This document shows, in pieces, positions 7,277 through 21,974 of a DNA stretch of 22,829 nucleotides (positions are counted from its first letter, which is position 1; every line of letters begins with the position of its first letter). Both the position numbers and the translations under genes were made by a program. This stretch comes from an uncultured Alistipes sp. GTDB lineage: Bacteria; Bacteroidota; Bacteroidia; Bacteroidales; Rikenellaceae. Location of the stretch: NCBI GenBank assembly GCA_947174575.1, contig CAMWJM010000001.1, forward strand, positions 1 to 22,829. The letters are read 5' to 3'. The notes below the pieces were generated by a model. That model was given only the letters and a program-made list of their open reading frames with translations, did not search any database and had not been told where the DNA came from.

Positions 7277-7378
7277 TATAGCTTTTCGGAACGAGGGCGG
7301 AAGTCGAGGAAACGCATTCCCGAGGCCTCCTAAACTCCGATCCGGCGAGTATGTATTTTGTTCTTGCAGCGGTGGCTT

Positions 7379-8737
7379 ATGAAACCGAACGAAATCGTCT
7401 CCTACTTCACCGACACGATCTTCCGGCGCGACGCCAGCGAGTGGCGCAGCCCCGTGGTGCGGTGGTGCGTGCAGCAGTACAAGCTGGTCTTCTACACGGC
7501 CCGCGGCCTCGTGGAGCACGGCACCATGATCCGCTCGGCCGCGCTGACGTTCTACACCCTCATGTCGCTGGTGCCCATTCTGGCCGTGGTGTTCGCCGTG
7601 GTCAAGGGGTTTGGGCTGGCCGACGGCCTGGTGCAGAGCCTCTATTCGCTCTTTCCGCAGAGTCCCGAGTTGATCGACTACGTCGTCGCTTTCGCCGAAA
7701 AGGCGCTGGCCCGCACGCAGGGCGGCGTGGTGGCCGTCGTGGCGCTGGTCATGCTGTTCTGGGCCGTGATCCGCGTCTTCGGGTCGATCGAAAAGGCGTT
7801 CAACAACATCTGGGAAGTCAAGGTCGAGCGCAGCATCGCCCGGCAATGGAGCGACTACATCGCCATCGTGATGATCGTGCCCGTGCTGTGGGTCATCGCC
7901 GGCGCCGTGGGCGGTTATGCCCGCGAGTGGCTGGGCTTCGGCGACGGGTGGGGCTATAAGCTGCTCTCCAAGGCCGTGTCGTTGACGGTCGTCTGGGTGA
8001 TGTTCGTCTTTCTGTATATCGTCATCCCCAATGCCCGGGTGCGTTTTTCGAGCGCCCTCACGGCCGGCATCGTCGCAGGTACAGCATTCGCGCTTTTCCA
8101 GTGGGGCTACCTCTATGTGCAGCGGTGGATGACTTCGTATAATGCGATCTACGGCAGTTTCGCGGCGCTGCCTCTGCTGCTGATTTGGATGCAGACCTCG
8201 TGGCAGATCCTGCTTTTCGGCGGCGAGCTGTCGTTCGCCTACCAGAACATCGCCCGCTTCGGCGAGGAGCGCGAGTCGCTGCGCATCAGCTACGACCAGC
8301 GCCGCAAGGTGCTGCTGGCCGTGATGCTCACCGTCGTCGAGCAGTTCCGCGACCGAGGCGGCGCCACGCCGTCCGAAGTCGTCCGCGAGCGTCTGGGCCT
8401 GCCCACGCGCATCGTCAACGACGTACTCTACCAGCTCGTGCAGGCGGGGCAGCTGGTCGCCGTGCCGATGAGCGACAACGAGCGCGACATGGCCTTTATC
8501 CCGGCGCACGACATCGCGACGCTGACCCTGTGCGGCATTCTCGAAGCGGTGGAGCAGTCGGGCGAAACGCTTTTCGCCCTCGACTCCGCGCCCCAGCTGG
8601 CCCGCATCGACCGCGAGTTGGAGCGGATGAAGACTTCGACCCGCTGCTTGCCGGAAAACGGAAAAATCGTGGAACTGCTGGAAAATTCACAATGCACAAT
8701 TCATAATTCACAATTGTCGGGCGCTAAAAAATTATGA
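7379..8737 (+). CDS. YihY/BrkB family (UPF0761) inner-membrane protein
   Basis: This polytopic protein of 452 residues belongs to the family once misnamed ribonuclease BN. About six membrane segments lie between residues 40 and 300. Family landmarks include HGTMIRSAALTFYTLMSLVP, SIEKAFNNIWEV and SYNAIYGSFAALPLLLIWMQ. Residues from about 310 look like a winged-helix C-terminal domain (TPSEVVRERLGLPTRIVNDVLYQL region). The molecular function of the family is unsettled. I chose the ATG at 7379 over the TTG at 7358. The last residues, NSQCTIHNSQLSGAKKL, are translated from an inserted heptad repeat (8684-8715) and are probably not ancestral. The stop overlaps the next ATG by four bases. Confidence 0.9.
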   Translation: MKPNEIVSYFTDTIFRRDASEWRSPVVRWCVQQYKLVFYTARGLVEHGTMIRSAALTFYTLMSLVPILAVVFAVVKGFGLADGLVQSLYSLFPQSPELIDYVVAFAEKALARTQGGVVAVVALVMLFWAVIRVFGSIEKAFNNIWEVKVERSIARQWSDYIAIVMIVPVLWVIAGAVGGYAREWLGFGDGWGYKLLSKAVSLTVVWVMFVFLYIVIPNARVRFSSALTAGIVAGTAFALFQWGYLYVQRWMTSYNAIYGSFAALPLLLIWMQTSWQILLFGGELSFAYQNIARFGEERESLRISYDQRRKVLLAVMLTVVEQFRDRGGATPSEVVRERLGLPTRIVNDVLYQLVQAGQLVAVPMSDNERDMAFIPAHDIATLTLCGILEAVEQSGETLFALDSAPQLARIDRELERMKTSTRCLPENGKIVELLENSQCTIHNSQLSGAKKL

Positions 8738-8747
8738 ATCGTGCATT
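8684..8747. repeat. inverted pair of AATTCAY heptad arrays, yihY/DUF2520 junction
   Basis: The left arm (8684-8715) is four 7-base units, AATTCAC, AATGCAC, AATTCAT, AATTCAC, then AATT. The right arm (8730-8747) holds the inverse units ATGAATC and GTGCATT after AATT. The arms can pair around a 14-base spacer. The array encodes the end of the YihY protein and spans the DUF2520 start codon. It is strongly AT-rich against GC-rich neighbours. Confidence 0.8.
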
Positions 8748-9519
8748 GAATAGAGTTGTAATTATCGGCAGCGGCAATGTCGCCGAGGCATTAGCCCGGG
8801 CCGTGGCGGACTGCGGGTTGCAGCTGGTGCAGCTTTGGGCGCGTAACGAGGCCCGGGCGCAGGAGGTCGCCGGGGCGGTGGGGTGTCCGTGGGCGTGCCG
8901 GCCCGAACGACTGGCTGCGGCGGACCTGTATTTGCTGGCTGTCAGCGACCGGGCCGTGGCCGAAGTGGCGGCGACGCTTCCTATTCCCTGCGGGGCCGTC
9001 GTGGCCCATACGGCCGGGAGCGTGCCGCTGGAGGCGTTGCCCGCGAAGTTCGCCCGCCGGGCGGTCTTCTATCCCCTGCAAACGTTCACGCGGGGGCGGC
9101 GGGTCGAGTGGTCGGAAGTGCCGATCTTCCTCGAAACTTCGACGCCCGAGCTGCTGTCCGAGTTGGAGGCGTTCGCCCGCCGGCTTTCGCGGCAGGTCTT
9201 CGTCGCCGATTCCGGCAGGCGCGCGCAGCTGCATCTGGCGGCCGTCTTCGTCTGCAACTTCGTCAACCACATGTATGTCGTGGGCGAGCGGGTGATGAAG
9301 GGCGCGGGACTCGACTTCGAGCTGCTCAAGCCTTTGATCGCCGAGACCGCCGCCAAGGCGCTCGCCGCGGCATCGCCCGCCGCCGGGCAGACCGGCCCGG
9401 CCGTGCGGGGCGACCTGCCGACGCAGCAGCGCCACACAGCGATGCTCGACGACGAATTATTGCGAACCGTTTATTTATCTGTTAGTCGTAGCATATGGGA
9501 AACTTCAAAGAAGATATAG
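8734..9519 (+). CDS. Rossmann-fold protein with DUF2520 domain
   Basis: This is a 261-residue protein. The N-terminal half is an NAD(P)-binding Rossmann domain (VVIIGSGNVAEALA, residues 8-21), resembling pyrroline-5-carboxylate reductase and ketopantoate reductase. The C-terminal half is the DUF2520 helical domain, with HLAAVFVCNFVNHMYVVGE and a terminal QQRHTAMLDDELLRTVYLSVS. The substrate is unknown; an oxidoreductase role is inference. The first residues, MNRALNR, lie in the right arm of a heptad repeat, so the start may have been remodelled. The gene overlaps the yihY stop by four bases and the following HAD gene by 25 bases, indicating tight co-expression. Confidence 0.88.
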   Translation: MNRALNRVVIIGSGNVAEALARAVADCGLQLVQLWARNEARAQEVAGAVGCPWACRPERLAAADLYLLAVSDRAVAEVAATLPIPCGAVVAHTAGSVPLEALPAKFARRAVFYPLQTFTRGRRVEWSEVPIFLETSTPELLSELEAFARRLSRQVFVADSGRRAQLHLAAVFVCNFVNHMYVVGERVMKGAGLDFELLKPLIAETAAKALAAASPAAGQTGPAVRGDLPTQQRHTAMLDDELLRTVYLSVSRSIWETSKKI

Positions 9520-10040
9520 CCCGCACCGAAGCCTTCGTCTTCGATGTCGACGGCGTGATGACCGACGGGGGCATCGTCCCCACGGCCGAGGGCGATTTCA
9601 TTCGCCGCTACAATGCCAAGGACGGCTACGCCCTGGCCTATGCGATCAAACTGGGCTACAGGGTGTGCGTCATTTCGGGCGGCCGGGGCAGGACGCTGGA
9701 GAATAGGTTGAAGATGCTCGGAATCAAGGAGTATCACCTCGACTGCATGGACAAGATCACCACCCTGCACGACTATTTCCGGCGCGAGGGTCTCGACCCG
9801 GCGCGGGTGATCTACATGGGCGACGACATCCCCGATCTGGAGTGCATGCGCGAGGTGGGGATCCCGGTGTGCCCGTCCGATGCCGCCCCGGAGGTGATCG
9901 AGGCGTCGCGCTATGTGTCGCAGTTCGCCGGGGGTGCCGGCGCCGTGCGCGACATCATCGAACAGGTGCTGCGGGCACGCGGCGACTGGGCGCGCGACTC
10001 GCAGGGCGTGACCCCCTCGACGCTGGCGGCGTCGAACTGA
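9495..10040 (+). CDS. kdsC: KdsC-like HAD phosphatase (3-deoxy-D-manno-octulosonate 8-phosphate phosphatase)
   Basis: This 181-residue protein is of C0-type HAD length and is cytoplasmic. Motif I is FDVDGVMTDG (nucleophile D17, acid/base D19), motif II is ISGG, and motif IV is MGDDIPDLECM. These match KdsC, which removes phosphate from KDO-8-phosphate on the way to the lipopolysaccharide inner core. Related HADs act on other sugar phosphates (for example the phosphatase half of NeuA-like fusions), so the substrate is an inference. It overlaps the DUF2520 gene by 25 bases. A strong hairpin with a T-run follows the stop within four bases, so this is the last gene of the group. Confidence 0.88.
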   Translation: MGNFKEDIARTEAFVFDVDGVMTDGGIVPTAEGDFIRRYNAKDGYALAYAIKLGYRVCVISGGRGRTLENRLKMLGIKEYHLDCMDKITTLHDYFRREGLDPARVIYMGDDIPDLECMREVGIPVCPSDAAPEVIEASRYVSQFAGGAGAVRDIIEQVLRARGDWARDSQGVTPSTLAASN

Positions 10041-10043
10041 AAC

Positions 10044-10070
10044 AAAAAAGGGCGATTTCCGCCCTTTTTT
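10044..10070. terminator. bidirectional intrinsic terminator between kdsC and the acyltransferase genes
   Basis: The 11-bp perfect stem AAAAAAGGGCG / CGCCCTTTTTT has a five-base loop ATTTC. It has A6 on one side and T6 on the other, so it can end transcripts from both directions. The kdsC stop lies just upstream and the convergent acyltransferase stop codon overlaps its right edge. Confidence 0.92.
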
Positions 10071-11080
10071 CATTTCGTTTTCTGTTTCTTCTTGATCCGC
10101 TCCAGGTGGTCGATCAGTTGGAGGCGGAACGCTTCGCGCCGGGCCTTCAGATCGCGGCGCCACCCTTTCCAGCGCGTGTAACGCTGGCGCTTCTCATCGT
10201 AAATATCGCTGATGGTCAGCAAAATGCCTGTTTCCTCGACGCCTCCGAAATCGGGATTCGACACCGTGTCGAACACCCGCATCGTGGGCGATAGATTCAT
10301 GTAGGCGTTGATCAGCGGCGGAATGTGCTCGTTGAACTCGCGGATTTTCTGGATGAGAATGCGGTAGTTCTCCTGGTAGTTCGTGCCCGAGAACAGCTGT
10401 TCGTAGTAGGGGTCGTCCAGATCGAGCTGCAGGGGGTGTATGCCCTCCACCAGGCGGTCGCGGTCGGGGAAGTAGCGGCGCAGGAACCAGATCAGGGCGT
10501 TGCGCGCCACGGCCTGGTAGGAGGTGTACATCGTGACCTTGCCGAACAGATATTTCACTTTGGGATTCAGCACGATGAGCGCCCCCAGACCGTCCCACAG
10601 ATTGTCCAGCGCATAGAGGCTCTTGGGGTTCTGCCGCGCCTGGTAGGCCGGCTGCACGAACGAGCGGCCCAGTTCGATGGTGCGGGGCAGATAGCGGCGG
10701 CGGAACTTCTCGCTGAAGCGGAAATAGTGCTCGGTCGAGAGGTGGCGCGGATGCGACGTCGTGCAGACGATGAAGCGGTAGCCGCCCACGATCTCTTCGG
10801 CCGCGGGGTCCCACACGATGAGCTGGTAGTAGCCGTCGCCGGCCAGGTCTTCTTCGTCGATGTCTGCCTCCTTGCCCGTGCCGCCGCCCGCGCCGCGGAA
10901 CGCCTCCTCGCGCAGCCGCCCGATTTCGCGCATCAGCGCCGGGCATTCGGCCGCCGGGAAAATGTAGATTTCGTTCGACGCCTTGTTCGTGTCGCGCACC
11001 TTGCGCTCGGGAATCAGTTCGGCCCGCAGCAGCGCTCGGTCGACGGGCGGGAGGATCGGTTGTTCGGATTTTTGTTGCAT
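10070..11080 (-). CDS. glsB: OlsB/GlsB-like N-acyltransferase (GNAT fold, aminolipid synthesis)
   Basis: This 336-residue protein is of the hemolysin-like GNAT family that includes OlsB (ornithine lipids) and Bacteroides GlsB (glycine lipids). These enzymes attach a 3-hydroxy fatty acid to the amino group of an amino acid. Landmarks are LREEAFRGAGGGTGK, the DGYYQLIVWDP strand, IVGGYRF and the ELGRSFVQPAYQ segment. The C-terminal tail is rich in Lys and Arg, ideal for membrane binding. In B. thetaiotaomicron the glsB and glsA genes are neighbours, as here, which supports glycine lipid over ornithine lipid; the amino acid is not provable from sequence. The gene lies 28 bases downstream of glsA-like on the same strand and converges on kdsC. 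Confidence 0.8.
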   Translation of the reverse strand: MQQKSEQPILPPVDRALLRAELIPERKVRDTNKASNEIYIFPAAECPALMREIGRLREEAFRGAGGGTGKEADIDEEDLAGDGYYQLIVWDPAAEEIVGGYRFIVCTTSHPRHLSTEHYFRFSEKFRRRYLPRTIELGRSFVQPAYQARQNPKSLYALDNLWDGLGALIVLNPKVKYLFGKVTMYTSYQAVARNALIWFLRRYFPDRDRLVEGIHPLQLDLDDPYYEQLFSGTNYQENYRILIQKIREFNEHIPPLINAYMNLSPTMRVFDTVSNPDFGGVEETGILLTISDIYDEKRQRYTRWKGWRRDLKARREAFRLQLIDHLERIKKKQKTK

Positions 11081-11087
11081 AGCGGAA

Positions 11088-11095
11088 CAAAAGTA
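11088..11095 (-). promoter_or_regulatory. candidate -7 box just before the glsB-like start
   Basis: Read on the minus strand this is TACTTTTG, a TAnnTTTG match ending seven bases before the ATG at 11080. It could give a leaderless internal transcript of the second gene. There is no visible -33 element, and chance is possible. Confidence 0.28.
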
Positions 11096-11108
11096 GTCAT
11101 TTCGGCCG

Positions 11109-11936
11109 TTATTGGTGCGGTGCGACGAGCGTTTTTTCCAAAAAATAGGTTTTTGTACGTATGGCTTCGGCCTGTTCGCGCAGCGATCCGAGGCTTTGCA
11201 GTTCGGCGGTGGGGATCGGATCGCCCACGACGATGCGGAAGTGCTTGCCCTGCTGCGAGAACATCTCGTCGGGCAGCCACAGCATCTCGATGTTGAACTT
11301 CACGCCCAGCCATTTGCGCACCCGGTCGACCCCATAGAAGAAGTTCGACAGGCGCCCCTCGACGAACACCGGCACGATCTGGCGGCCCGACGCGGCGGCC
11401 TTTTTCAGGAAATTGGTTTTCCATTCCAGGTCGGTCACGCGGCCTCCGATGCGGCGCGAACACAGCCCGGCCGGGAAGGTGAGGATCGGCAGATCGCCGA
11501 AGAAGGCTTCGTCGAAGCGCCGGGCGTAGTCGCTGTTCTGCGCGCCGTGCTTGTTGACCGGCACCCACAGCGGCCGCAGCGGCTCGACGTGCATCAACAG
11601 GTCGTTGACCACCACCCGGGCGTCGCCGAAGCGGTCGATGAGTTTGTCGGCCAGCATCATGCCGTCCATGCCGCCGAACGGGTGGTTGGCCACGAAGAGG
11701 TAACGCCCCGTCGGATCGAGCCGCTCCAACCCCTGGGCCGAATAGGTCACGCCCCATTCGCGGAAGCAGGCGCGGATGAACTCCTGGGGCGGCAGCTCCC
11801 AGTAGGAGGCCAGAATGTGGTTGATCTCGGCTTCGTGCACCGTGCGGCGCAGCCATTCGACCGCCGGCCGCGGAATGCGGCGGGCCAGCTTGGGGGCTTT
11901 CTGGCGGAGGACGTTTCCGATGTCGATTCGAGGCAT
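11109..11936 (-). CDS. glsA: OlsA/GlsA-like O-acyltransferase (PlsC family)
   Basis: This 275-residue protein is of the lysophospholipid acyltransferase fold, associated with the inner membrane. The catalytic block is NHPFGGMDG (H85, D91), an H-x5-D spacing instead of the usual H-x4-D. Block III is FPAG at 154-157, with Ala in place of the common Glu of FPEG, followed by LCSRR. I recall these variants from the OlsA/hemolysin-like branch, so they are probably normal for it. The expected reaction is esterification of the 3-hydroxyl of the lyso-aminolipid made by the neighbouring N-acyltransferase. It is the first gene of the minus-strand pair and diverges from rsmH. A candidate promoter lies about 136 bases upstream. 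Confidence 0.8.
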   Translation of the reverse strand: MPRIDIGNVLRQKAPKLARRIPRPAVEWLRRTVHEAEINHILASYWELPPQEFIRACFREWGVTYSAQGLERLDPTGRYLFVANHPFGGMDGMMLADKLIDRFGDARVVVNDLLMHVEPLRPLWVPVNKHGAQNSDYARRFDEAFFGDLPILTFPAGLCSRRIGGRVTDLEWKTNFLKKAAASGRQIVPVFVEGRLSNFFYGVDRVRKWLGVKFNIEMLWLPDEMFSQQGKHFRIVVGDPIPTAELQSLGSLREQAEAIRTKTYFLEKTLVAPHQ

Positions 11937-11996
11937 AAACGAGTGCGGATTTACGTTGCGACTGAATTGCCGGAGATTCCGAATTTCCGGCGCAAC

Positions 11997-12058
11997 CTGC
12001 GGCCGTCGGTCGTTCCCGTCCCGACGGATGCGATCGTCGGGCGGGTTGCGGGCCGCAG
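11997..12058. repeat. nested inverted repeats in the glsA/rsmH divergent region
   Basis: The outer arms are CTGCGGCC (11997-12004) and GGCCGCAG (12051-12058). The inner arms are CCGTCGG (12003-12009) and CCGACGG (12021-12027). A smaller repeat, GCCGGA / TCCGGC, lies at about 11969-11991. All fall in the predicted 5' leader of the glsA-like transcript. They could form a structured leader; no known riboswitch is recognised. Confidence 0.4.
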
Positions 12059-12071
12059 AAAAATATATCTA

Positions 12072-12079
12072 CAAATATA
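12072..12079 (-). promoter_or_regulatory. candidate -7 promoter box for the glsA-glsB pair
   Basis: On the minus strand this reads TATATTTG, a full TAnnTTTG match in an AT-rich island. It predicts a leader of roughly 130 bases before the ATG at 11936. No -33 TTTG is seen at the usual spacing. Confidence 0.5.
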
Positions 12080-12101
12080 GGTATTCTTTTCGAATTTTAC
12101 C

Positions 12102-12109
12102 TAACTTTA
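12102..12109 (+). promoter_or_regulatory. candidate -7 promoter box for the rsmH division cluster
   Basis: TAACTTTA matches seven of the eight positions of the pheS box TAACTTTG and differs from the consensus TAnnTTTG only in the last base. It sits 29 bases before the rsmH ATG, in an AT-rich island facing the divergent glsA box. Confidence 0.5.
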
Positions 12110-12138
12110 CACCCAAATAGTCTTTTGCCGTCAATCCT

Positions 12139-13086
12139 ATGTCCGCCTATCATACACCGGTGTTGCTGGAGGAGTCCGTGGAGCTGCTCGCCGTCGATCC
12201 GCGGGGCACCTACGTCGATCTGACGTTCGGCGGAGGCGGGCATTCGCGCCGTATCCTCGCGGCGTTGGGCGAGGGGGGACGGCTGTATGCGTTCGACCAG
12301 GACAGGGATACGCGGGCGAATTGCCCCGACGACGGGCGTTTCTGCTTCGTGGAGAGCAATTTCCGTTTCCTGCGCGGGGCGCTGCGGCTGCGCGGCGTCG
12401 GCCGGGTCGACGGCATCCTGGCCGATCTGGGGGTCTCGTCGCACCATTTCGACGACCTCGGGCGCGGGTTTTCGTTCCGCGGCGAAGCTCCGTTGGACAT
12501 GCGCATGAACCAGCGGGGGCGCCTGACCGCCGCCGAGGTGGTCGGCAGCTATCCGGCCGAGGAACTGACCCGCGTTTTCGGCGACTGGGGCGAGATCGAA
12601 ACCCCGTGGAAAGCGGCCAACTGCGTCGTCCGCGCGCGGCAGGCGGAGCCGATCCGCACCACCGCGCAGCTGGTCGAGGCCGTGAAGCCCTGCACGCCCC
12701 GCAAGGACGAGGCGAAGTTCCTGACCCGGCTTTTCCAGGCGCTGCGCATCGAGGTCAACGGCGAGATGGAGGCTCTGAAGATGGCTTTGGAGCAGAGCCT
12801 CAAGGTGTTGAAGCCCGGCGGGCGGTTGGCGGTCATCTCCTACCATTCGCTCGAAGACCGGTTGGTCAAGAATTTCCTGCGCAGCGGCAACTTCGCGGGC
12901 GAGGTGGAGAAAGATTTCTTCGGCCGGGCGCAAACCCCGTTCGAGCCGGTGACGCGCAAGGCCGTGACCCCTTCGGCCGAGGAGCTGGCGCGCAATCCGC
13001 GGTCGCGGTCGGCCAAGCTGCGCGCAGCGGTGAAAAAGGCGGACGCGCCGCAGGGCGGGGGCGTCGGAGGCGTTCGCAGCAAGTAG
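12139..13086 (+). CDS. rsmH: 16S rRNA (cytosine1402-N4)-methyltransferase
   Basis: RsmH (MraW) methylates C1402 of 16S rRNA in the decoding centre. The 315-residue length is normal. The N-terminus MSAYHTPVLLEESVELL and the SAM loop DLTFGGGGHS (residues 27-36) are diagnostic, as are GRVDGILADLGVSSHHFDD, FSFRGEAPLDMRMN and the C-terminal ISYHSLEDRLVKNFL. It opens the division/cell-wall cluster here. mraZ, which often precedes it, is not present; the upstream neighbour is the divergent lipid gene pair. The ftsL-like gene starts nine bases after its stop. Confidence 0.97.
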   Translation: MSAYHTPVLLEESVELLAVDPRGTYVDLTFGGGGHSRRILAALGEGGRLYAFDQDRDTRANCPDDGRFCFVESNFRFLRGALRLRGVGRVDGILADLGVSSHHFDDLGRGFSFRGEAPLDMRMNQRGRLTAAEVVGSYPAEELTRVFGDWGEIETPWKAANCVVRARQAEPIRTTAQLVEAVKPCTPRKDEAKFLTRLFQALRIEVNGEMEALKMALEQSLKVLKPGGRLAVISYHSLEDRLVKNFLRSGNFAGEVEKDFFGRAQTPFEPVTRKAVTPSAEELARNPRSRSAKLRAAVKKADAPQGGGVGGVRSK

Positions 13087-13095
13087 GTAGAGTGT

Positions 13096-13611
13096 ATGTA
13101 CGACCACGAATTCGATACCGGCGTTTCCGAGCAGGAGACCCAGTTGCGGCAGGACGAGGAGTTCGCCCGGCGCGTGCGGCGCGAAGTGCTGCGCATGGAT
13201 CGGGGCGAAGCCGAGGAGGATATTCGCGCCGATCTGGAGCGGGAGGCTCTGGAGCGCGCCGAGGTCGAGGCTCGCGAGCAGCGCGAGCGGCGGCGCAAGG
13301 CCAATGTGCTATGGCAGTTCTTTTCGGGGACGATCCTCGTGCGGGCCGGCGTGTCGCGCTACTATCCCTACATGCTCTGCGTGGCGGGCATGTTTTTTTT
13401 GAGCATCGTCGTGATGTTCACGGCTCTGCATCTGGATGTGAAATATTCGCTCCTCGACCGTGAGGTGCAGATGTTGCGCGAGCGCTCGCTCCGACTGGAG
13501 GAGGAGCGTTTCCGCCGCACGACCCATTCGGCCGTCAGCGAGCGGCTGCGCGAGCGGAACATTCCGCTCTACGACCCCCCGGCTCCGGGCGAGCGGATCG
13601 AAATTCGGTAG
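13096..13611 (+). CDS. ftsL: FtsL-like cell division protein
   Basis: This is a 171-residue bitopic protein. A long, highly charged cytoplasmic N-terminus (residues 1-88) precedes one membrane segment (about 91-111, starting PYMLCVAGMFFLSIVVMF). A short periplasmic coiled coil follows (VKYSLLDREVQMLRERSLRLEEE). Size, topology and position between rsmH and ftsI match the Bacteroidota FtsL-like family. FtsL in other bacteria bridges FtsB/FtsQ and activates the FtsW-FtsI septal synthase. Sequence conservation in this family is low, so the assignment rests largely on context. The cytoplasmic part is long compared with E. coli FtsL. The stop is two bases before the ftsI ATG. Confidence 0.88.
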   Translation: MYDHEFDTGVSEQETQLRQDEEFARRVRREVLRMDRGEAEEDIRADLEREALERAEVEAREQRERRRKANVLWQFFSGTILVRAGVSRYYPYMLCVAGMFFLSIVVMFTALHLDVKYSLLDREVQMLRERSLRLEEERFRRTTHSAVSERLRERNIPLYDPPAPGERIEIR

Positions 13612-13613
13612 CG

Positions 13614-15875
13614 ATGAAAGGGACGCGTTCGAAGATCAAAAGCGATATTCTGCTGCGGGTGAGGCTGCTGTATGTGGTCTTCATCGCGGCGGGCATGGTG
13701 GTGTCGGCCCGTCTGATCTGGGTGCAGCTCTTCAGTCGCGAGGTGGCGTTCAACGCCGAGCGTCTGGCCAGCCGCATCTTCACCGAGGAGGTCGTCCCCG
13801 CCCAGCGGGGCAGCATCCTGGCCCGCAACGGCGATCCGCTGGCCGCGTCGATCTTCCGCTATAGGGTGGCTTTCGACTTCGCGTCGGAGGGGTTGGATTC
13901 GCTCAAGGTCTACCGCGAGCAGAGCGATTCGCTCGCCGGACTGCTCGCTGCGTTTTTCAAGGACAGGTCGGCCGCCGAGTATCGGCGCATGTTCCGCGAG
14001 GAGCATGCCCGGCACTACCGCCTCGTGCGGCCGCGCGATACGACTTATGCCCGTTCCGAGGGGTGGCTTTCGCGTCTGGGCGACCGGCTGCGGGGCGAGG
14101 AGTTCATCACCCGCACCGTCTACGACACGATCCGCGACCATACGCCCGTCGACATCTTTCCGCGCGACGTCGATTTCGCCGAGTGGGAGGTGTTGCGGCG
14201 CTATCCGCTGCTCAACTGGAACATGGGCATGGTCTACCGGCTCGTGGAGAGCGACGAGCGCATCTATCCCCAGGGCGAACTGGCTCGCCGCACGATCGGC
14301 AAGCAGGGCGAGCAGGGCAACTACGGCATCGAGGACGCCTACCGCGAAGAGCTGGCGGGGCGCGACGGCAAGACCGTGCGGCAACGCATCGCCCGCGGGT
14401 TCCAGGGGCGTGTGGCCGGTGCCGGTTATCAGGAACCCGAAGACGGGCTGCATGTGGTCACCACGCTCGATCTCGATCTGCAGGAGGTGGCCGACAAGGC
14501 GCTGCGGCAGCAGCTCGCGGCCCAGAACGCCAACTGGGGCACTGCCATCGTCATGGAGACCCGCACGGGCGAAATCCTCGCCATGGCCAACCTCGGGCGC
14601 ACCTCGTCCGGAACCTATGCCGAGCGCGAAAACTACGCCTTGAGCCGCAGCATGGAGCCGGGGTCGACGTTCAAGTTGGCGACCATGCTGCTGCTGCTGG
14701 ACGACGCCGGGATGTCGGCCTCGACGGTCTACGACACCAACGACGGCGATCCCGTGACGATCGGCCCCGCCGAGAACATCCGCGACGATCATCGCGGCGG
14801 CAGACGCATGGATTTGCGTCGGGCCGTGGCCGTGTCGTCGAACGTCTATTTCGCTCGCGCCGTGTGGGAGCGCTATGGCATCACGGGCAAGAAGCAGCGC
14901 TACAGCGATTTCTTGCACGACAAGCTCGCTCTGGGGCAGACCGTGGGGCTGGAGCGCCTGGGCGAGCGGCCGCCGGAGATCACCTCCGACTGGAAAGTCG
15001 ACGACCCCGGGGTGATGCTCGTCAAGATGTCGTACGGCTACCGCGTGCGGATGACGCCGATACAGATGATTACGTTCTACAACGCCGTGGCCAACGGCGG
15101 GCGGATGATCTCGCCCGTGCTGGTCAAGGAGTTGCGGCGCGGCTCGCGGGTCGTCGAACGCTTCGAGACCCGCACGATCCGCCGTTCGATCGGCTCGGTC
15201 GCCGCGCTGCAGGAGGTGCGGCGCGGTCTGGAGGCGGTCTGCACCGAGGGTACGGCGCGCGACTATTTCGGCGACACGCTGCGTCTGCGGGTCGCGGCCA
15301 AGACCGGTACGGCCCAGATCACCGACGCCCGCCGGCTCCAGGGGCGTTACTACCTGGGTTCGATGGTGGCGTTCTTCCCCGCCGATCACCCCCAGTTCAC
15401 GGTCTTGACCGTCATCGAGACCCGGGCGCAGCCCGGCAAGACCTTCTACGGCGGGCCGCTGGCCGGGCCGGTGGTCAAGCGGCTGGTCGACTACACCTTC
15501 AACCGCTACGGGTCGCGCAATGCCCGCCCCGCGACCGGCGTTCCCGCTTGCCGGCCCCGGCAGGTGAAGGGGGGCGACATTGCCCAGATCCGGCAGGTCG
15601 CCGAGCGCTTTGCGTCGGAGGTGGTCTCCGAGCGCCGGGCGGGCTGGGGCACCGTGCGGGTCGACGAGCGGTCGAACGTGGTGGTCGAGGGTTTCGGCGA
15701 GGAGCGCAAGACCGTGCCCGACGTGCGCGGCATGGGCCTCAAGGATGCGCTGTTCCTGCTGGAGAACTACGGGCTGCGCGTGCGCTTTTCGGGCACGGGC
15801 ACCGTGGTTTCGCAGAGCATCGCGCCCGACACGCCGCTGCGCAGCGGGACGACGATTCGAATAGTTTTGGAATAG
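13614..15875 (+). CDS. ftsI: penicillin-binding protein FtsI, division transpeptidase with C-terminal PASTA domain
   Basis: This 753-residue class B PBP cross-links septal peptidoglycan in the periplasm. One N-terminal membrane helix (about 16-40) leads to the dimerisation/pedestal region (PAQRGSILARNGDPLA). The transpeptidase domain carries SxxK at S351-K354 (GSTFK), SxN at S408-N410 and KTG at K563-G565. The last roughly 55 residues (from TVPDVRGMGLKDALFLLENY) are a single PASTA domain, absent from proteobacterial FtsI but known in Bacteroidota division PBPs. Its partner FtsW is encoded 4 kb downstream. murE starts nine bases after the stop. Confidence 0.96.
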   Translation: MKGTRSKIKSDILLRVRLLYVVFIAAGMVVSARLIWVQLFSREVAFNAERLASRIFTEEVVPAQRGSILARNGDPLAASIFRYRVAFDFASEGLDSLKVYREQSDSLAGLLAAFFKDRSAAEYRRMFREEHARHYRLVRPRDTTYARSEGWLSRLGDRLRGEEFITRTVYDTIRDHTPVDIFPRDVDFAEWEVLRRYPLLNWNMGMVYRLVESDERIYPQGELARRTIGKQGEQGNYGIEDAYREELAGRDGKTVRQRIARGFQGRVAGAGYQEPEDGLHVVTTLDLDLQEVADKALRQQLAAQNANWGTAIVMETRTGEILAMANLGRTSSGTYAERENYALSRSMEPGSTFKLATMLLLLDDAGMSASTVYDTNDGDPVTIGPAENIRDDHRGGRRMDLRRAVAVSSNVYFARAVWERYGITGKKQRYSDFLHDKLALGQTVGLERLGERPPEITSDWKVDDPGVMLVKMSYGYRVRMTPIQMITFYNAVANGGRMISPVLVKELRRGSRVVERFETRTIRRSIGSVAALQEVRRGLEAVCTEGTARDYFGDTLRLRVAAKTGTAQITDARRLQGRYYLGSMVAFFPADHPQFTVLTVIETRAQPGKTFYGGPLAGPVVKRLVDYTFNRYGSRNARPATGVPACRPRQVKGGDIAQIRQVAERFASEVVSERRAGWGTVRVDERSNVVVEGFGEERKTVPDVRGMGLKDALFLLENYGLRVRFSGTGTVVSQSIAPDTPLRSGTTIRIVLE

Positions 15876-15884
15876 ATCGATAGT

Positions 15885-17348
15885 ATGATGAAACATCTTT
15901 CGCGATTGATCGGAAATACGCCGGTGCTCCGCATGGAGGGGGCCGGCGATGCGGAGATCGGGTCGCTGACCTACGACTCGCGGGCCGTGGTGCCGGGCGC
16001 CTGCTTCTTCGCCGTGCCGGGTACGCGCTGCGACGGCCACGACTTCATCCCTGCGGCGGTGGAGAAGGGGGCTGCGGCGATCGTGTGCCGGCAGTTGCCC
16101 GACGTGCTGGCGCCCGGCGTGGCCTATGTCGCGGTCGACGATCCCGCTGGAGCCATGGCCGACATGGCCGCGGCGTTCTACGACCACCCGAGCCGCGAAC
16201 TGCGGTTGGTGGGCGTCACGGGCACCAACGGCAAGACCACGACCGCCACGCTGCTCTACGATCTGGTGCGGGCTTTGGGCCGCAAGGCGGGGTTGATCTC
16301 CACGGTCGTCTACAAAATCGACGACCGCACCGTCGAGGCCACCCACACCACGCCCGACCCGATCCGGCTCAACGCCATGATGCGCGAAATGGTCGACGCC
16401 GGGTGCGAGTATTGTTTCATGGAGTGCTCGTCGCATGCGATCGTGCAGGAGCGCATCCGGGGGCTGCGGTTTGCGGGCGGTCTGTTCTCCAACATCACCC
16501 ACGATCATTTGGACTATCATAAGACCTTTGCAGCTTATATCAAGGCCAAGCAGCTCTTTTTCGACGCCCTGCCGGCCGATGCTTTCGCGCTCACCAACAT
16601 CGACGACCGCAACGGCCGCGTCATGGTGCAGAACACGGCGGCGCAGGTCGGAACCTATTCGCTGCGGTCGATGGCCGACTTCCGCTGCCGGATCGTCGAG
16701 CAGCACCTCGACGGGATGCTGCTGCGCATCGACGGCGACGAAGTGTGGGTGGCGCTGCCCGGGCGATTCAACGCCTACAACCTGCTTGCGGTCTATGGCG
16801 CCGCCTGCCTGTTGGGTTTCGATCGGGCCGAGGTGCTGCGCGTGTTGAGCGCTCTGCACTCGGTGGCCGGCCGTTTCGAAATCGTGCGTGCGGCCGACGG
16901 TACGACGGCAGTGGTCGATTATGCCCACACGCCCGATGCCCTCGAAAACGTGATCCGCACCATCGAGGAGATCCGCACGCCCGCGCAGCAGCTCATCGTG
17001 GTGTGCGGGTGCGGCGGCGACCGCGACCGCACCAAGCGTCCCGAAATGGCGGCGATCGCTGCGAAATATGCCTCTGCGGCGATCTTCACGTCGGACAATC
17101 CGCGTCACGAGTCGCCCGACGCGATCCTCGACGAGATGATGGCCGGCCTCGACCCGGCGGCCCGCTGCTTGCGCATGGTCGATCGTGCCGAGGCCATTCG
17201 TGCCGCCGCGATGCTGGCCAAGCCCGGCGACATCGTGCTCGTGGCGGGCAAGGGGCACGAGGACTACCAGATCGTCGGCGACGAAAAACGTCATTTCGAC
17301 GACCGCGAAGAGGTGAAAAAAGCGTTGGAAACGATTCACAATTCATAA
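15885..17348 (+). CDS. murE: UDP-MurNAc-tripeptide synthetase MurE, mDAP type
   Basis: This 487-residue cytoplasmic Mur ligase adds the third amino acid of the stem peptide. The P-loop [11 protein letters not shown] has K117. [11 protein letters not shown] and [12 protein letters not shown] bind the substrate and the carbamylated lysine region follows. DNPR (404-407) followed by HESP is the signature for meso-diaminopimelate rather than lysine, so the wall is mDAP type. The start is ATG at 15885 or 15888. The final residues, IHNS, and the stop are read from heptad repeat units (17333-17353), so the C-terminus has probably been remodelled. mraY begins 26 bases on. Confidence 0.97.
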
Positions 17349-17353
17349 ATCAC
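17333..17353. repeat. short heptad array at the murE/mraY junction
   Basis: Three units in 7-base phase: GATTCAC, AATTCAT, AAATCAC. They encode the last murE codons and its stop (TAA at 17346-17348). There is one arm only, with no inverted partner. It is the most degenerate of the five arrays. Confidence 0.6.
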
Positions 17354-17374
17354 TATCGAATTTTCATATACTCT

Positions 17375-18619
17375 ATGTTTTACTCTCTTTTCCGTTTTCT
17401 CGACCGGGCCTACAACGTTCCCGGTTCGGGCATGTTCCAGTACATTTCGTTCCGCGCCGCCGGGGCGATCATCGTGTCGCTGTTGATCGCCGTGATCTTC
17501 GGCCGGTCGATCATCGATTTTCTGCGGCGCAAGCAGATCGGCGAGGACATCCGCGATCTGGGTCTCGACGGGCAGCTCGAAAAGCGCGGCACCCCCACCA
17601 TGGGCGGCGTCATCATCCTGCTGGCGATCCTCGTGCCGATGCTGCTGTTCGGGCGTCTGGACAACATCTACGTGCAGCTGATGCTCGTGTCGACCGTGTG
17701 GCTGGGTTTCATCGGCGGGCTGGACGACTATATCAAGGTCTTCCGCCACCGCAAGGAGGGCCTCAAAGGGAAATTCAAGGTCGTGGGGCAAGTGGGCCTC
17801 GGCATCATCGTGGGCACCGCCATGTGGCTCTCGCCCGACATCGTCGTGCGCGAGAAGGTCACGCAGCCCGTGGAGACGGTATTCGTCAATCCCGACGGCT
17901 CGACCGAGCAGAGCATTCAGCTGCGTTTTCTCATCAGCTCCGAGGCGGTGAAGACCACCAGAACGACCATTCCGTTCTTCAAGAACAATTCGTTCGACTA
18001 CGGGTGGCTCACCGGCGGCCGCGAGGCGGCGACCTGGCTGCTCTATGTGCTGGTGGCGATCTTCGTGGTGACGGCCGTGTCCAACGGCGCCAATCTCACC
18101 GACGGTCTCGACGGTCTGGCCACGGGCGTCTCGGTGCCGATAGTCGTGGTGCTGGGCATCCTGGCCTATCTGTCGGGACACATCGTCTATGCCGACTACC
18201 TCAACATCATGTTCATTCCCCACAGCGGCGAGCTGGTGGTCTTCGCCGCGGCCATGGTCGGGGCGCTGGTGGGTTTCCTGTGGTACAACTCGTTCCCCGC
18301 GCAGATCTTCATGGGCGACACGGGGTCGCTGTCGATCGGCGGCATCATCGCCGTCTTCGCGCTGTGCATCCGCAAGGAACTGCTGTTGCCGCTGCTGTGC
18401 GGCGTCTTCCTGGTGGAGAGCTGCTCGGTGATGCTGCAGGTCGGCTGGTTCAAGTATACGAAGCGCAAGTATGGCGAGGGGCGCCGCATCCTGCTGATGT
18501 CGCCCATGCATCACCACTACCAACTCAAGGGCCAGTTCGAAACCAAGATCGTCCTCCGCTTCTGGATCATCTCGCTGCTGCTGGCCGCCATGACATTGGT
18601 GACGTTGAAGATACGCTGA
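17375..18619 (+). CDS. mraY: phospho-N-acetylmuramoyl-pentapeptide transferase
   Basis: MraY transfers phospho-MurNAc-pentapeptide to undecaprenyl phosphate, making lipid I in the inner membrane. Diagnostic motifs are [22 protein letters not shown] with the following KEGLKGKFK loop, [24 protein letters not shown] and [12 protein letters not shown]. At 414 residues it is longer than the roughly 360 of E. coli. The excess is a segment between [14 protein letters not shown] and [11 protein letters not shown], probably periplasmic, which I recall from other Bacteroidota MraY proteins. The ATG at 17375 was chosen because upstream in-frame sequence is murE shadow. Confidence 0.97.
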
Positions 18620-18632
18620 CGGGCGAAAGATA

Positions 18633-18664
18633 AATGCACAATGCACAATTCATAATTCACAATT
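18633..18664. repeat. heptad array at the mraY/murD junction
   Basis: Four perfect units, AATGCAC, AATGCAC, AATTCAT, AATTCAC, then AATT. Only one arm is present. It lies between the mraY stop and the candidate murD promoter. Confidence 0.8.
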
Positions 18665-18688
18665 AAAGGTCGCGTGTAGCGTGTAGTT

Positions 18689-18696
18689 TATCTTTG
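18689..18696 (+). promoter_or_regulatory. candidate internal promoter for murD-ftsW
   Basis: TATCTTTG is a full TAnnTTTG match located 20 bases before the murD ATG, in the 97-base gap after mraY. It could uncouple murD and ftsW from the upstream cluster promoter. No -33 TTTG is seen at the usual distance. Confidence 0.5.
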
Positions 18697-18716
18697 TTTC
18701 GCTATAAATTTCGAGT

Positions 18717-20063
18717 ATGAAAAATATCGTCGTATTGGGCGGCGGCATCAGCGGCTACGGTTCCGCGATCCTCGCCAGGAAGCAGGGTTTCGGGGTCTTC
18801 CTCTCCGACATGGGGCGCATCGCCGAGCGTTACAAGCAGAAACTCGACGAGTGGCAGGTGCCCTACGAGGAGGGCGGACACAGCGAGGAGCGCATCCTCG
18901 CCGCCACGGAGGTCGTCAAGTCGCCCGGCATTCCCGAGACGGCGCCCATCGTGCGGAAAATCCGCGAGGCGGGCATTCCCGTTATCTCCGAGATCGAGTT
19001 CGCCGGTCGTTATATGGGCAAGGCCCGCTGCATCTGCATTACCGGGTCGAACGGTAAGACGACCACCACGTCGCTCATCTACAAGATCATGCGCGATGCG
19101 GGGCTGAACGTCGCTCTGGGCGGCAACATCGGCGAGAGCTTCGCCTACTCGGTCGCTACGGGCAGCTACGACTGGTATGTGCTGGAGTTGAGTTCGTTCC
19201 AGCTCGACGGCATGTACCGCTTCCGTGCCCATATCGGCGTGTTGATGAACATCACGCCCGACCACCTCGACCGCTACGACCATTGTTTCCAGAACTACGT
19301 CGATTCGAAGATGCGCATCACGCAGAACCAGACTTCGCGCGATTTCTTCGTCTATTCGGGCGACGACGAGACCATCTGGCAGCAGCTCCCCAAGTACGAC
19401 CTGCGCATGCGGCAGCTGCCTTTCGCGGCGCGCAACGCCGTGGCGAGCGGTGCCGGCGACGCGTTCCTGTGCGACGGCAAATTTACTGCGACGGTCGGCA
19501 AGAGTTCGGTCGAAGTCGACATGGCCAAAATGCGGATCGGAGGTCTCCACAACGCCTACAACGCCATGGCCGCAGCTTTGGCGACGCTGGCGGCGGGCGT
19601 GGCCCCGGCGAAAATCCGCCGCTCGCTCTATGACTTCGCGCCCGTCGAACATCGCCTCGAACCCGTCGCCGAGAAAGGGGGCGTGCTGTGGATCAACGAC
19701 TCCAAGGCCACCAACGTCGACTCGGTGTGGTATGCGCTCGAAAGCATGAAGTGCCCGCTGGTGTGGATCGCCGGCGGCACCGACAAGGGCAACGACTACG
19801 GTCCGCTGAAAGAGTTCGCGCGGCAGAAAGTGCATACGTTGGTGTGCATGGGGCTGGACAACGCCAAGCTGGTGCGCGAATTTACGGGCATTGTCCCTGA
19901 AATCGTCTCCACCGATTCGCTCGACGCGGCGATGACGGCGGCGGCCGCCGCCGCCCGCCCCGGCGACGCGGTGCTGCTGTCGCCCGCCTGCGCGTCGTTC
20001 GACCTGTTCAAGAACTACGAACAGCGGGGCGAGCTGTTCAAGGAGTGGGTAACGAACAATTGA
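18717..20063 (+). CDS. murD: UDP-MurNAc-L-alanine:D-glutamate ligase
   Basis: This cytoplasmic 448-residue Mur ligase adds D-glutamate to UDP-MurNAc-L-Ala. The N-terminal Rossmann domain (NIVVLGGGISGYGSAIL) binds the nucleotide sugar. The P-loop is CITGSNGKTTTT, with LELSSFQLDG and NITPDHLDRY in the central domain. GGLHNAYNAMAA, EHRLEPV and NDSKATN lie at the central/C-terminal hinge, and SPACASFDLFKNYEQRG is the C-terminal signature. The stop TGA (20061-20063) lies inside the first heptad unit, AATTGAA, of the following repeat. A candidate promoter precedes the gene. Confidence 0.97.
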   Translation: MKNIVVLGGGISGYGSAILARKQGFGVFLSDMGRIAERYKQKLDEWQVPYEEGGHSEERILAATEVVKSPGIPETAPIVRKIREAGIPVISEIEFAGRYMGKARCICITGSNGKTTTTSLIYKIMRDAGLNVALGGNIGESFAYSVATGSYDWYVLELSSFQLDGMYRFRAHIGVLMNITPDHLDRYDHCFQNYVDSKMRITQNQTSRDFFVYSGDDETIWQQLPKYDLRMRQLPFAARNAVASGAGDAFLCDGKFTATVGKSSVEVDMAKMRIGGLHNAYNAMAAALATLAAGVAPAKIRRSLYDFAPVEHRLEPVAEKGGVLWINDSKATNVDSVWYALESMKCPLVWIAGGTDKGNDYGPLKEFARQKVHTLVCMGLDNAKLVREFTGIVPEIVSTDSLDAAMTAAAAAARPGDAVLLSPACASFDLFKNYEQRGELFKEWVTNN

Positions 20064-20134
20064 AAATTCATAATTCACAATTCATAATTGGTGTTCCCGT
20101 TTAATTGTGCATTGTGAATTCTAAATTGTGAATT
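20058..20134. repeat. inverted pair of heptad arrays, murD/ftsW junction
   Basis: The left arm (20058-20089) is AATTGAA, AATTCAT, AATTCAC, AATTCAT, AATT. The 13-base GC-containing spacer is followed by the right arm (20103-20134), which is AATT plus inverse units GTGCATT, GTGAATT, CTAAATT, GTGAATT. The left arm contains the murD stop, and the right arm ends one base before the ftsW ATG. The first 32 bases and the first 25 of the right arm are identical to the copy after ftsW. Confidence 0.9.
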
Positions 20135-20135
20135 T

Positions 20136-21380
20136 ATGAATAACGCTGCCGAGCTGCCCAAGCGGCATCTTTTCACCGGCGACCGCGTGCTGTGGATTAT
20201 CGTCGCCACGCTGGCGGTGATCTCGGTGCTGGTGGTCTATTCGTCGACCGCCAAAATGGCCTACGACGCCCACATGGTGCGCACGACGACCCATTTTCTG
20301 CAGCAGCAGCTGTTGATTCTGATCGTCGGCCTGGCCGTGATGCTCGTCGTGCAGAAGATCGACTGCCGCATCTACGGGGTCTTCGCCAAGCCGATCTACA
20401 TCCTCTCGGTGCTCGCTACGGTCGCCGTCTATTTCGTGGGTTCGACCGTCAACGGCGCAGCCCGCTGGATCCCGATCGGCGGCTTCCAGTTCCAGCCCTC
20501 CGAGGCGCTGAAAGTGGCTACGGTGCTCTTTCTCGCGCAGCAGCTGGCGGGCCGGCAGCCCCGCATCGACAAAATTCTGATCCTGCCGTCGTGGCGGTTC
20601 TGGACGTGGAACCGACCCGAGCAGCGGCGCATCTGGAGCGAGGGCACGCGGCCCATTCTGCTGCCGATGCTCGTGTCGTGTCTGGTGATCTTCCCGGCCC
20701 ATTTCTCGTCGGCCATGCTGGTGTTTCTGGCGTCGTGGGTGATGATGTTGATCGCGCGCGTGAGGTTCGGCGAGTTGATAAAGCTCCTGGGGGTGACGCT
20801 GGTGGTGGTGGCGGTGGTTATGACTTTCAGCCTGGGACGCAGCGAGACCGCCGAGGGACGCGTGTCGACATGGGTGGACTATTGGACGCAACCCCAGACC
20901 GAGAAACCTATCGAACAGCTCACCGATTCCGAGCGTTCGATGATCGCCATCCATAACGGCGGCATCCTGGGTCAGGGCGCCGGCCAAAGCGCCATGCGGG
21001 TGGAGATGATCCACCCCGAGAGCGACTATGCCTTCGCCTTTTTCGTCGAGGAGTACGGTTTGCTGCTGGCCGTGGTGCTGCTGATGCTCTATCTGTGGAT
21101 TTTCTTCCGCGCGATCGAGATTTTCCGCCGCTGCGGCACGGCGTTCCCGGGGTTGCTGGTGCTGGGTCTGGCGCTGCAGATCACCTGTCAGGCGCTGCTG
21201 CACATCATGGTGACGGTCAACCTCATCCCCGAGACCGGGCAAACGCTGCCCCTCATTTCGCGCGGCGGCTCGTCGGTGCTCTTCACCGCCGTAGCTCTGG
21301 GCATGATTCTGAGCGTGAGCCGCCAGAACGAGGAGCAGTCGCACGTCAAACCCAAGGCGGAAACACTCTACGGGAATTGA
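20136..21380 (+). CDS. ftsW: SEDS peptidoglycan glycosyltransferase FtsW
   Basis: This 414-residue polytopic membrane protein polymerises septal glycan strands with FtsI. Landmarks are STVNGAARWIPIGGFQFQPSE, the catalytic-aspartate region HPESDYAFAFFVEEYG (D297) and the C-terminal NLIPETGQTLPLISRGGSS. A cytoplasmic loop (about residues 145-175, RIDKILILPSW onward) is longer than in E. coli. FtsW and RodA are paralogues; the position behind murD and after ftsI supports FtsW. The stop lies inside a heptad repeat unit. murG, the usual next gene, is absent. Confidence 0.95.
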   Translation: MNNAAELPKRHLFTGDRVLWIIVATLAVISVLVVYSSTAKMAYDAHMVRTTTHFLQQQLLILIVGLAVMLVVQKIDCRIYGVFAKPIYILSVLATVAVYFVGSTVNGAARWIPIGGFQFQPSEALKVATVLFLAQQLAGRQPRIDKILILPSWRFWTWNRPEQRRIWSEGTRPILLPMLVSCLVIFPAHFSSAMLVFLASWVMMLIARVRFGELIKLLGVTLVVVAVVMTFSLGRSETAEGRVSTWVDYWTQPQTEKPIEQLTDSERSMIAIHNGGILGQGAGQSAMRVEMIHPESDYAFAFFVEEYGLLLAVVLLMLYLWIFFRAIEIFRRCGTAFPGLLVLGLALQITCQALLHIMVTVNLIPETGQTLPLISRGGSSVLFTAVALGMILSVSRQNEEQSHVKPKAETLYGN

Positions 21381-21454
21381 AAATTCATAATTCACAATTC
21401 ATAATTATTGTTTTCAGTCTTTAATTGTGCATTGTGAATTCTAAATTATGAATT
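21375..21454. repeat. inverted pair of heptad arrays, ftsW/S4 gene junction
   Basis: The left arm (21375-21406) is identical to the left arm after murD. The 16-base spacer is followed by the right arm (21423-21454), AATT plus inverse units GTGCATT, GTGAATT, CTAAATT, ATGAATT. It contains the ftsW stop and ends four bases before the next ATG. The expected cluster order breaks at this point. Confidence 0.9.
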
Positions 21455-21458
21455 GTTT

Positions 21459-21854
21459 ATGGATGCCGTTCGTTTGGACAAATACTTGTGGGCCGTGCGG
21501 GTGTTCAAGACCCGCAGCGATGCGGCCGATGCCATCCGCAACAACAAGGTCACGGTCGACGGAGCCTATGCCAAGCCGTCGCGCGAGGTGAAGATCGGCG
21601 ACCGCATCGAGGTGCGGCGTCGGCAGGTGACCTATTCGTACAAGGTGCTCGATCTGGTTTCGAGCCGCCAGCCCGCCAAGAACGTTCCCGACTACTGCCT
21701 CGACATCACGCCCCAGGAGGAGCTGGACAAGCTCGATATGCCGCGCGAAACGATCTTCGTCTTCCGCGACCGCGGCACGGGGCGCCCCACCAAGAAGGAG
21801 CGCCGCGACCTCGATTCGCTCATGGACGGCATCTATTACGACGACGAGGAGTAG
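21459..21854 (+). CDS. hslR: S4-domain RNA-binding protein, Hsp15-like
   Basis: A 131-residue cytoplasmic protein. The S4 domain occupies residues 1-60 (VRLDKYLWAVRVFKTRSDA, IRNNKVTVDG, KPSREVKIGD). A basic and acidic tail follows (GRPTKKERRDLD, ending YYDDEE). E. coli Hsp15 binds stalled 50S subunits carrying nascent chains; the same role is inferred here. I chose the ATG at 21459 over an in-frame TTG at 21453. In Bacteroidales this gene is usually close to pth, which fits the gene found 0.5 kb away, although here the two converge. Confidence 0.9.
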   Translation: MDAVRLDKYLWAVRVFKTRSDAADAIRNNKVTVDGAYAKPSREVKIGDRIEVRRRQVTYSYKVLDLVSSRQPAKNVPDYCLDITPQEELDKLDMPRETIFVFRDRGTGRPTKKERRDLDSLMDGIYYDDEE

Positions 21855-21941
21855 CATCTGGCTGGCCATGCCCCTGTCCGAGACGCTGACCCTGCTGTCG
21901 ATAGGACTCTATCGTCGATGCAGACAACTGCGGTGAGTACG

Positions 21942-21970
21942 AAAAAAGCGATCGCCGTTACGCGATCGCT
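21942..21970 (-). terminator. intrinsic terminator of the pth-mmcQ pair
   Basis: The 9-bp stem AGCGATCGC / GCGATCGCT has a six-base loop. On the minus strand it is followed by a T6 run (21942-21947 as A on the plus strand). It starts about five bases after the MmcQ-like stop. For plus-strand transcripts it lacks a U-run. The rest of 21855-21974 shows only a weak 6-bp hairpin at 21899-21914. Confidence 0.85.
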
Positions 21971-21974
21971 CGAT

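Follow-up and report, generated by a model that had tools for sequence, protein, structure and literature searches.

Tandem repeats built on a seven-base unit (heptamers) are known in several bacterial groups, without an agreed origin or function, and miniature inverted-repeat transposable elements (MITEs) are known as short, dispersed, non-coding sequences with inverted ends. The elements described here, which lie at gene junctions in an uncultured Alistipes sp., share something with both. They were noticed in a stretch of 22,829 nucleotides (nt) from this organism (GenBank assembly GCA_947174575.1, contig CAMWJM010000001.1, positions 1 to 22,829 of the forward strand), the whole of which is called the window below, its genome being G000. 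One element would consist of an arm of about four 7-base units closed by AATT, a spacer, and an inverse arm of the same unit class. We put at about even the chances that such elements form a genus-wide family of dispersed, non-coding inverted pairs with heptad arms, whose spread and persistence we infer and which resemble in shape, without being, the REPINs (hairpin-forming doublets of repetitive extragenic palindromic, or REP, sequences).

The short tandemly repeated repetitive (STRR) sequences of cyanobacteria usually have 7-bp units, and for one of them, situated in the promoter region of hoxW, a hairpin loop is possible (PMC2670836). The first-pass annotation of the window had likened its arrays to these, and 7-base tandem units in register and hairpin potential are indeed common to both; the Alistipes elements differ, on a comparison of organisation and not of the unit sequences themselves, in having convergent arms of one class at gene boundaries and a unit that varies between species. 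TAACTGA heptamer direct repeats are mostly intergenic and patchily distributed in Beggiatoaceae, Cyanobacteria and five Bacteroidetes, with some sets overlapping stop codons and some orthologous junctions free of repeats (MacGregor, 2015; PMC4679880); all of this, together with strict register, is found in Alistipes too. However, the TAACTGA sets have one unit, mostly in forward orientation before start codons, with one inverted repeat in 170 sets (PMC4679880), whereas the Alistipes units (AATKCAY, AATKAAR, RTGAAAR, AATGAAT and others) are other than TAACTGA, inverted pairs are regular, several unit classes occur in one architecture, and among 94 arms 52 face a stop codon and 37 a start codon. 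REPINs are inverted extragenic doublets with a spacer and a predicted hairpin, and occur alongside singlets (Bertels and Rainey, 2011; PMC3116915), a description that would cover the inverted extragenic doublets and solo arms of Alistipes as well; yet the arms here are tandem heptads and not palindromic REPs, and the genus genomes searched hold no Y1 transposase of the REP-associated tyrosine transposase (RAYT) type. With MITEs the elements have shortness, dispersal, inverted ends and the absence of coding in common, and they differ in having neither a target-site duplication nor a conserved body. We class the Alistipes elements as dispersed intergenic repeats and not with the STRR sequences, TAACTGA repeats or REPINs, with each of which they share part of their anatomy but not all of it. 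A search of the open-licence literature, in part of the top of longer lists, found nothing on these repeat units, and two papers containing one of the unit strings concern, by title, flax repeats and human DNA methylation.

As many of the loci read had been chosen by their arrays, 400 kb each of the related genomes G139 and G115 were taken unselected and scanned with four unit classes. These 800 kb contained 45 arms (7 in the reversed sequence). Wherever neighbouring arms lay 400 nt or less apart they were convergent, + then - (11/11), and they were of the same unit class in all 11 cases, for which chance would give 0.42 and 0.46 per pair. Forty of the 45 arms were mostly outside called genes, in DNA of which 83.5-87.8% was called as coding, and the other five overlapped gene ends. 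The arms are also polar, their AAT side lying within 40 nt of a gene end in 28/45 (19/24 at stops, 9/21 at starts) and their other side in 2/45. The placement at gene junctions that had been proposed for the window is thus borne out, and neither position nor orientation is random, given the convergent pairs and the polarity towards genes.

Nor are the arrays confined to one contig. In G000, an assembly of 1.44 Mb in 256 contigs and 72% complete, 81 matches to the strict pattern AATTCAYAATTCAY were found and none to the reversed-pattern control, some arrays sitting at contig ends (C10, C25, C84). Some arrays made purely of AATTCAC are longer, with 6 to 11 units. Across the genus, 35 of 151 genomes have at least one match to a strict pattern of this type and 11 have ten or more, with controls totalling 4. 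On a tree of one gene, murD, rooted at the midpoint and covering 36 of these genomes, the eleven array-rich genomes require at least five state changes. A looser pattern (AAT each 7 bases, five times) matches in 109/151 genomes, with many controls above 0 and, in G059, a control count exceeding the match count; RTGAAAR units occur in 22/151, with controls above 0 in some. From these matches it follows that the genus uses several unit classes, which we call CAY (AATKCAY), AAR (AATKAAR) and GTG (RTGAAAR), in addition to AATGAAT and others. One genome, G106 (84% complete), has no loose-pattern match and its near relatives G060 and G012 have many, by loss in the one or gain in the others.

The strict 7-base phase likewise stands. 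The array-chosen loci of G000 (156 kb) yielded 20 arrays with a period of 7 and a further 5 with a period of 14, whereas periods 5, 8, 10, 11, 13, 16 and 17 yielded none. For G139 a filtered list was used, because stretches of N inflate plain periodicity counts, which come to about 11 at every period. The nearest named relatives of the window's MurD are Alistipes metagenome-assembled genomes, the best of the 80 loci kept having 92% identity. In the 27 loci that come from named relatives there were 9 arrays at period 7, 1 at 10, 2 at 13 and 1 at 14, and the remaining 53 MurD-relative loci (L058-L110, outside the genus, 1038 kb) gave 2 at period 7 as against 3 at period 10 and 1 at period 5, so that period 7 is not prominent there. 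Relatives in the Bacteroidota, as the first-pass annotation expected, do exist: of 197 genomes from elsewhere in the phylum, 25 have CAY arrays and 25 have AAR arrays, the reversed control for the latter not being independent as the units are near-palindromic. At 20 chosen loci of eight non-Alistipes genomes, where CAY arms only were considered, neither a convergent CAY pair nor a constant gene polarity was found, and the paired, docked form is therefore established for Alistipes alone.

In the window, direct reading and scanning place arrays at 8684, 17333, 18633, 20058 and 21375, as first annotated. The arms and the genes next to them are as follows.

7358..8737, + strand: BrkB-family gene (PF03631; open reading frame (ORF) list, Pfam), the upstream neighbour of the 8684 element
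8684..8715, + strand: arm AATTCAC AATGCAC AATTCAT AATTCAC AATT, encoding the last residues of the BrkB-family gene (ORF list)
8730..8752 (about), - strand: degenerate inverse arm, with a spacer of 14 nt; the start codon (8734) and first codons of the next gene lie inside it
15885..17348, + strand: murE-type Mur ligase gene (ORF list, Pfam)
17333..17353, + strand: decayed arm at the murE-mraY junction, a single perfect unit flanked by damaged ones
17375..18619, + strand: mraY (ORF list, Pfam)
18633..18664, + strand: solo arm AATGCAC AATGCAC AATTCAT AATTCAC AATT at the mraY-murD junction
18717..20063, + strand: murD (ORF list, Pfam)
20058..20089, + strand: first arm of the murD-ftsW pair, first unit AATTGAA, with the murD stop codon inside
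20103..20134, - strand: inverse arm of the murD-ftsW pair, ending 1 nt before the ftsW start codon
20136..21380, + strand: ftsW/rodA-type gene (ORF list, Pfam)
21375..21406, + strand: first arm of the ftsW-S4 pair, first unit AATTGAA, with the ftsW stop codon inside
21423..21454, - strand: inverse arm of the ftsW-S4 pair
21453..21854, + strand: S4-domain gene (ORF list, Pfam); the listed start is a TTG inside the arm, an ATG at 21459 being likelier

The five arrays first counted come to four strict arms (at 18633, 8684, 20058 and 21375), each of 32 nt in 7-base register, and a weak one at 17333 that the scanner did not call and that looks like a decayed copy of a site which carries a pair in G060 and G139. 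Pairing had been claimed at three sites and is clear at 20058 and 21375, where the AATT-to-AATT spacers measure 13 and 16 nt; at 8684 the inverse arm is degenerate and was missed by the scanner, yet it pairs in the predicted RNA fold (z -3.35). The description of the arrays as lying only between cistrons was nearly right, except that the arms overlap gene ends and provide stop, start and terminal codons. Among the nine proteins scanned with Pfam, a DUF2520 gene and an MraW-type methylase gene are also found in the window. Another heptad, GCGTGTA, occurs in two copies at 18672-18686, beside the 18633 arm, and a terminator-like hairpin, listed on both strands and without heptads, lies at 10044-10070 between two convergent genes. 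The contig end (22760-22829) resembles an Illumina/Nextera adapter fused to a truncated gene, and is probably an assembly contaminant.

Docking on genes was measured in a set of 60 sources, namely the window and 59 loci of G000, G139, G086 and G115 picked for CAY arrays, with genes called, as also in the unselected stretches and at the loci outside Alistipes, by simple in-house scripts, so that start codons and distances are approximate. Four strict units is the commonest length (48/94 arms). The counts for stop-facing and start-facing arms leave aside five arms, three lying within called genes and two that lack a called neighbour on that side. The AAT end of stop-facing arms lies within 30 nt of the gene end in 49/52, with a median of -2, and many arms therefore contribute to or contain the stop codon; the same holds for 22/37 start-facing arms, and the opposite (3') side is near a gene end in 8/87 only. 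The sequence TAnnTTTG, quoted in PMC7366714 as the -7 consensus of the Bacteroidota primary sigma factor, follows within 35 nt of the AAT end in 14/37 start-facing arms, no stop-facing arm (0/52) and 3/89 inner flanks, and in 11 of these 14 the box lies at 5-8 nt. The docking points of the arms are thus stop codons, start codons and, in certain conserved promoters, positions 5-8 nt upstream of a -7 box. Docking on the -7 box as a general rule was rejected, since TAnnTTTG lies within 25 nt in only 2/21 start-facing arms of the unselected sample. In four species (L160, L191, L197, L242) arrays stop just above a TATCTTTG box in front of what is apparently the same gene, with a conserved CAGGCGGAAATGGGAT stretch afterwards. 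Spacers range from 7 to about 360 nt among the elements observed; at L248 (1494-1898, G060:C1) a broken 23S_rRNA_IVP gene (PF05635, E 2.7e-19, one piece) sits between two CAY arms that are separated by about 360 nt.

The same junctions were then compared across species, G106 and L031 being treated as one genome and likewise G086 and L032. The murD-ftsW pair is present in G000 alone among the species read. At the ftsW-S4 junction G000 and G060 have an AATTCAY pair with almost the same arms and different spacers, a GTGAAAR pair occupies the site in G115, G012 and G007, and G009, G106 and G086 have no pair. Ten further junctions were located through their G060 flanks in ten other genomes and G000 (up to twelve species); an eleventh probe, L267, had too few clear counterparts and was excluded. 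A script that requires two or more clean units per array, and therefore overlooks damaged arrays (e.g., G012 at rpsO), found two or three unit classes across species at 9/10 junctions and arms of one class in 23/23 recognised pairs. Occupancy was 8/10 in G115, 7/10 in G139, 2/9 found in G086 and 1/10 in G106, the neighbours of L268 in G106 and of L242 in G139 differing so that these are not the same junction there. In the unselected stretches there are some 34 elements per 611 called genes, counting each of the 11 pairs among the 45 arms once, and the compared junctions are therefore occupied far above chance. Empty sites are also present, several species being without elements at most compared sites. 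At the rpsO promoter exactly 28 nt of heptads lie between matching flanks in 12/12 species, although the pattern admitted 27 to 30 nt, and the array is CAY-like in five species, AAR-like in five and damaged in G054 and G141. At L137, an rpsO-like promoter site, G009 and G139 have a single unit where G060 and G000 have four. In G012 (C77; L303 and L301) a different, GC-rich repeat of ~200 nt lies inside or beside heptads at two junctions, as if another element used the arrays as landing sites.

In the reading to which we give even chances, the element would spread as a unit and would persist only where no gene or promoter is broken, solo arms being taken as mostly remnants. Existing arrays would be re-spelled as blocks, perhaps through conversion between arrays in a common 7-base register. 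An element in place provides a stop codon, an AT-rich gene boundary and a predicted hairpin in readthrough RNA. Because some species lack it at most compared sites, any benefit to the host is unlikely to be essential. Copying is suggested by an inner sequence common, by eye, to three G086 elements (L189 and two in L194) and by one 31-base AAR arm found exactly at at least four places in G054 and at least two in G139. In G060, four loci (L252, L254, L255, L256) have a common coding flank, a similar arm order and, inside, a GTCATTCTGAGG-type repeat, and may belong to a larger unit that is itself repeated. However, a number of findings weigh against this reading. In G000 the statistics give a weak sign that arms are copied, with 16 identical arm pairs against 6.7 +- 3.6 under a Markov model of the units (32/1000 simulations as high). 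Target-site duplication is absent from 26 pairs, the mean match being 1.77 against 1.65 +- 0.24 in shuffles and the longest 4, and the Y1 transposase (PF01797) was found in 0/43 genus genomes, other transposase families not having been searched and the control search being positive in 5/14 named genomes. Spacers mostly differ even between near-identical arms, as in G000 and G060 at the ftsW-S4 junction, unlike those of a fixed-body mobile unit; some carry terminator-like hairpins, recognised by eye, and part of the spacer may be native. The choice of the ten junctions was not random, since they come from arrays of G060 whose neighbouring genes are conserved. Finally, at rpsO, T,T,T,G stands at unit position 4 in several species of both classes, which fits in-place substitution equally well, so that substitution and block conversion cannot be told apart at that site.

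An element of the classical MITE or REPIN type, the arms of which would be terminal inverted repeats that a transposase encoded at another place in the genome cuts and pastes or copies, is a possible but rather doubtful explanation. The first-pass annotation had offered a MITE-like element as one option, and its shape and some signs of copying stand: the inverted pair with its spacer, the solo arms, the intergenic placement, the empty sites in relatives, the inner sequence of the three G086 elements and the arm pair around the broken 23S_rRNA_IVP gene are all as this explanation would have them. The missing target-site duplication and conserved body do not fit, nor does the refilling of the same junctions by other unit classes, and movement of a REPIN by the Y1 transposase was rejected on the 0/43 genomes.

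A selected cis-element is an unlikely explanation, although several features would suit it. Here the pair would be a gene-boundary hairpin (a terminator, a stabiliser of the mRNA 3'-end or an insulator separating a stop codon from the promoter that follows) and an arm above a -7 box would be the AT-rich upstream region of a promoter. Docking on stop codons and some -7 boxes, the fixed 28 nt at rpsO and the same-class arms of every recognised pair are in keeping with this, as are the stable predicted RNA folds (z -1.75 to -9.51) of eight hand-picked elements. It is on this predicted folding only that the mRNA hairpin proposed by the first-pass annotation can draw; within a class the arms of one element match no better (0.902) than arms permuted between elements (0.908; 26 pairs). 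No arm-to-arm pairing beyond that expected from class is therefore seen in these pairs, and a hairpin kept by compensating changes was rejected. The rarity of TAnnTTTG near unselected start-facing arms, the several species that manage without elements at most compared sites and the occurrence of pairs within the mur/fts gene run also argue against a selected element. Rfam gave no match in the window at the gathering threshold, and a terminator pattern scan (8000-22829) listed none in the arms, though it demands three G-C pairs and A/U-rich stems would therefore escape it. In the same interval sigma-70-type promoter-like matches numbered 11 (2.7 +- 1.5 in shuffles), 7 of them in arms (8679-8735, 20060-20132, 21377-21431), and they were given no weight because Bacteroidota use another consensus, although promoter activity of this kind in the arms is conceivable.

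Plain simple-sequence repeats, grown from AT-rich seeds at the edges of genes as the polymerase slips by 7 bases at a time, with template switching to produce the inverse arm, are quite improbable as the explanation. The strict register, the other heptads of the genus, the pure AATTCAC arrays and the one or four units at L137 would all be expected of slippage, and in most genomes no long simple repeat is commoner than the heptamer (PMC4679880, introduction). But slippage alone would yield neither convergent pairs nor gene polarity nor a unit class shared at many loci, on which grounds it was set aside as the main account, and the prevalence of four units and the fixed length at rpsO speak against it too. 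Telomerase-like templated addition was set aside because units vary within an array. A recombination site at which the arms let the spacer invert, switching promoters as Bacteroidales invertible promoters do, was the third option of the first-pass annotation; it gained no support, though no invertase was searched for, and is highly improbable: the arms are inverted around spacers and some of these lie beside promoters, but many spacers are too short for a promoter, the arms are not exact copies, and the one alignable sister-species spacer (tilS site, G115 and G007) has the same orientation.

The earlier interpretation of the window, which did not choose between its functional options, is, as a whole, partly supported, and the findings go beyond it in three respects: the unit differs between species at one junction, the arms dock on stops, starts and some -7 boxes, and other units are used across the genus. 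A bolder proposal, which we consider improbable, is that the 7-base unit is a swappable code within one class of element, the register, length, docking and pairing being kept while the unit changes. On this view, positions 5 and 7 of the unit would switch jointly in almost every unit (AATTRAR against AATTCAY), and would do so at a number of sites and in more than a single lineage. If the proposal is true, there would be a factor for reading or copying nucleic acid seven bases at a time, co-evolving with the arrays as a binding protein does with its sites, or, alternatively, a conversion machinery by which arrays are rewritten block by block. The repeats also matter in practice, with some arrays at contig ends and, in a common gut genus, arms that alter the ends of genes by supplying stop and start codons. 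To the heptamer repeats already described, the Alistipes set adds a fixed architecture of convergent same-class arms, a polarity towards genes and a unit that varies between species at orthologous junctions, and these make two questions testable by sequence alone in strain collections: whether both arms of a pair appear in a single step, and whether one array is converted by another.

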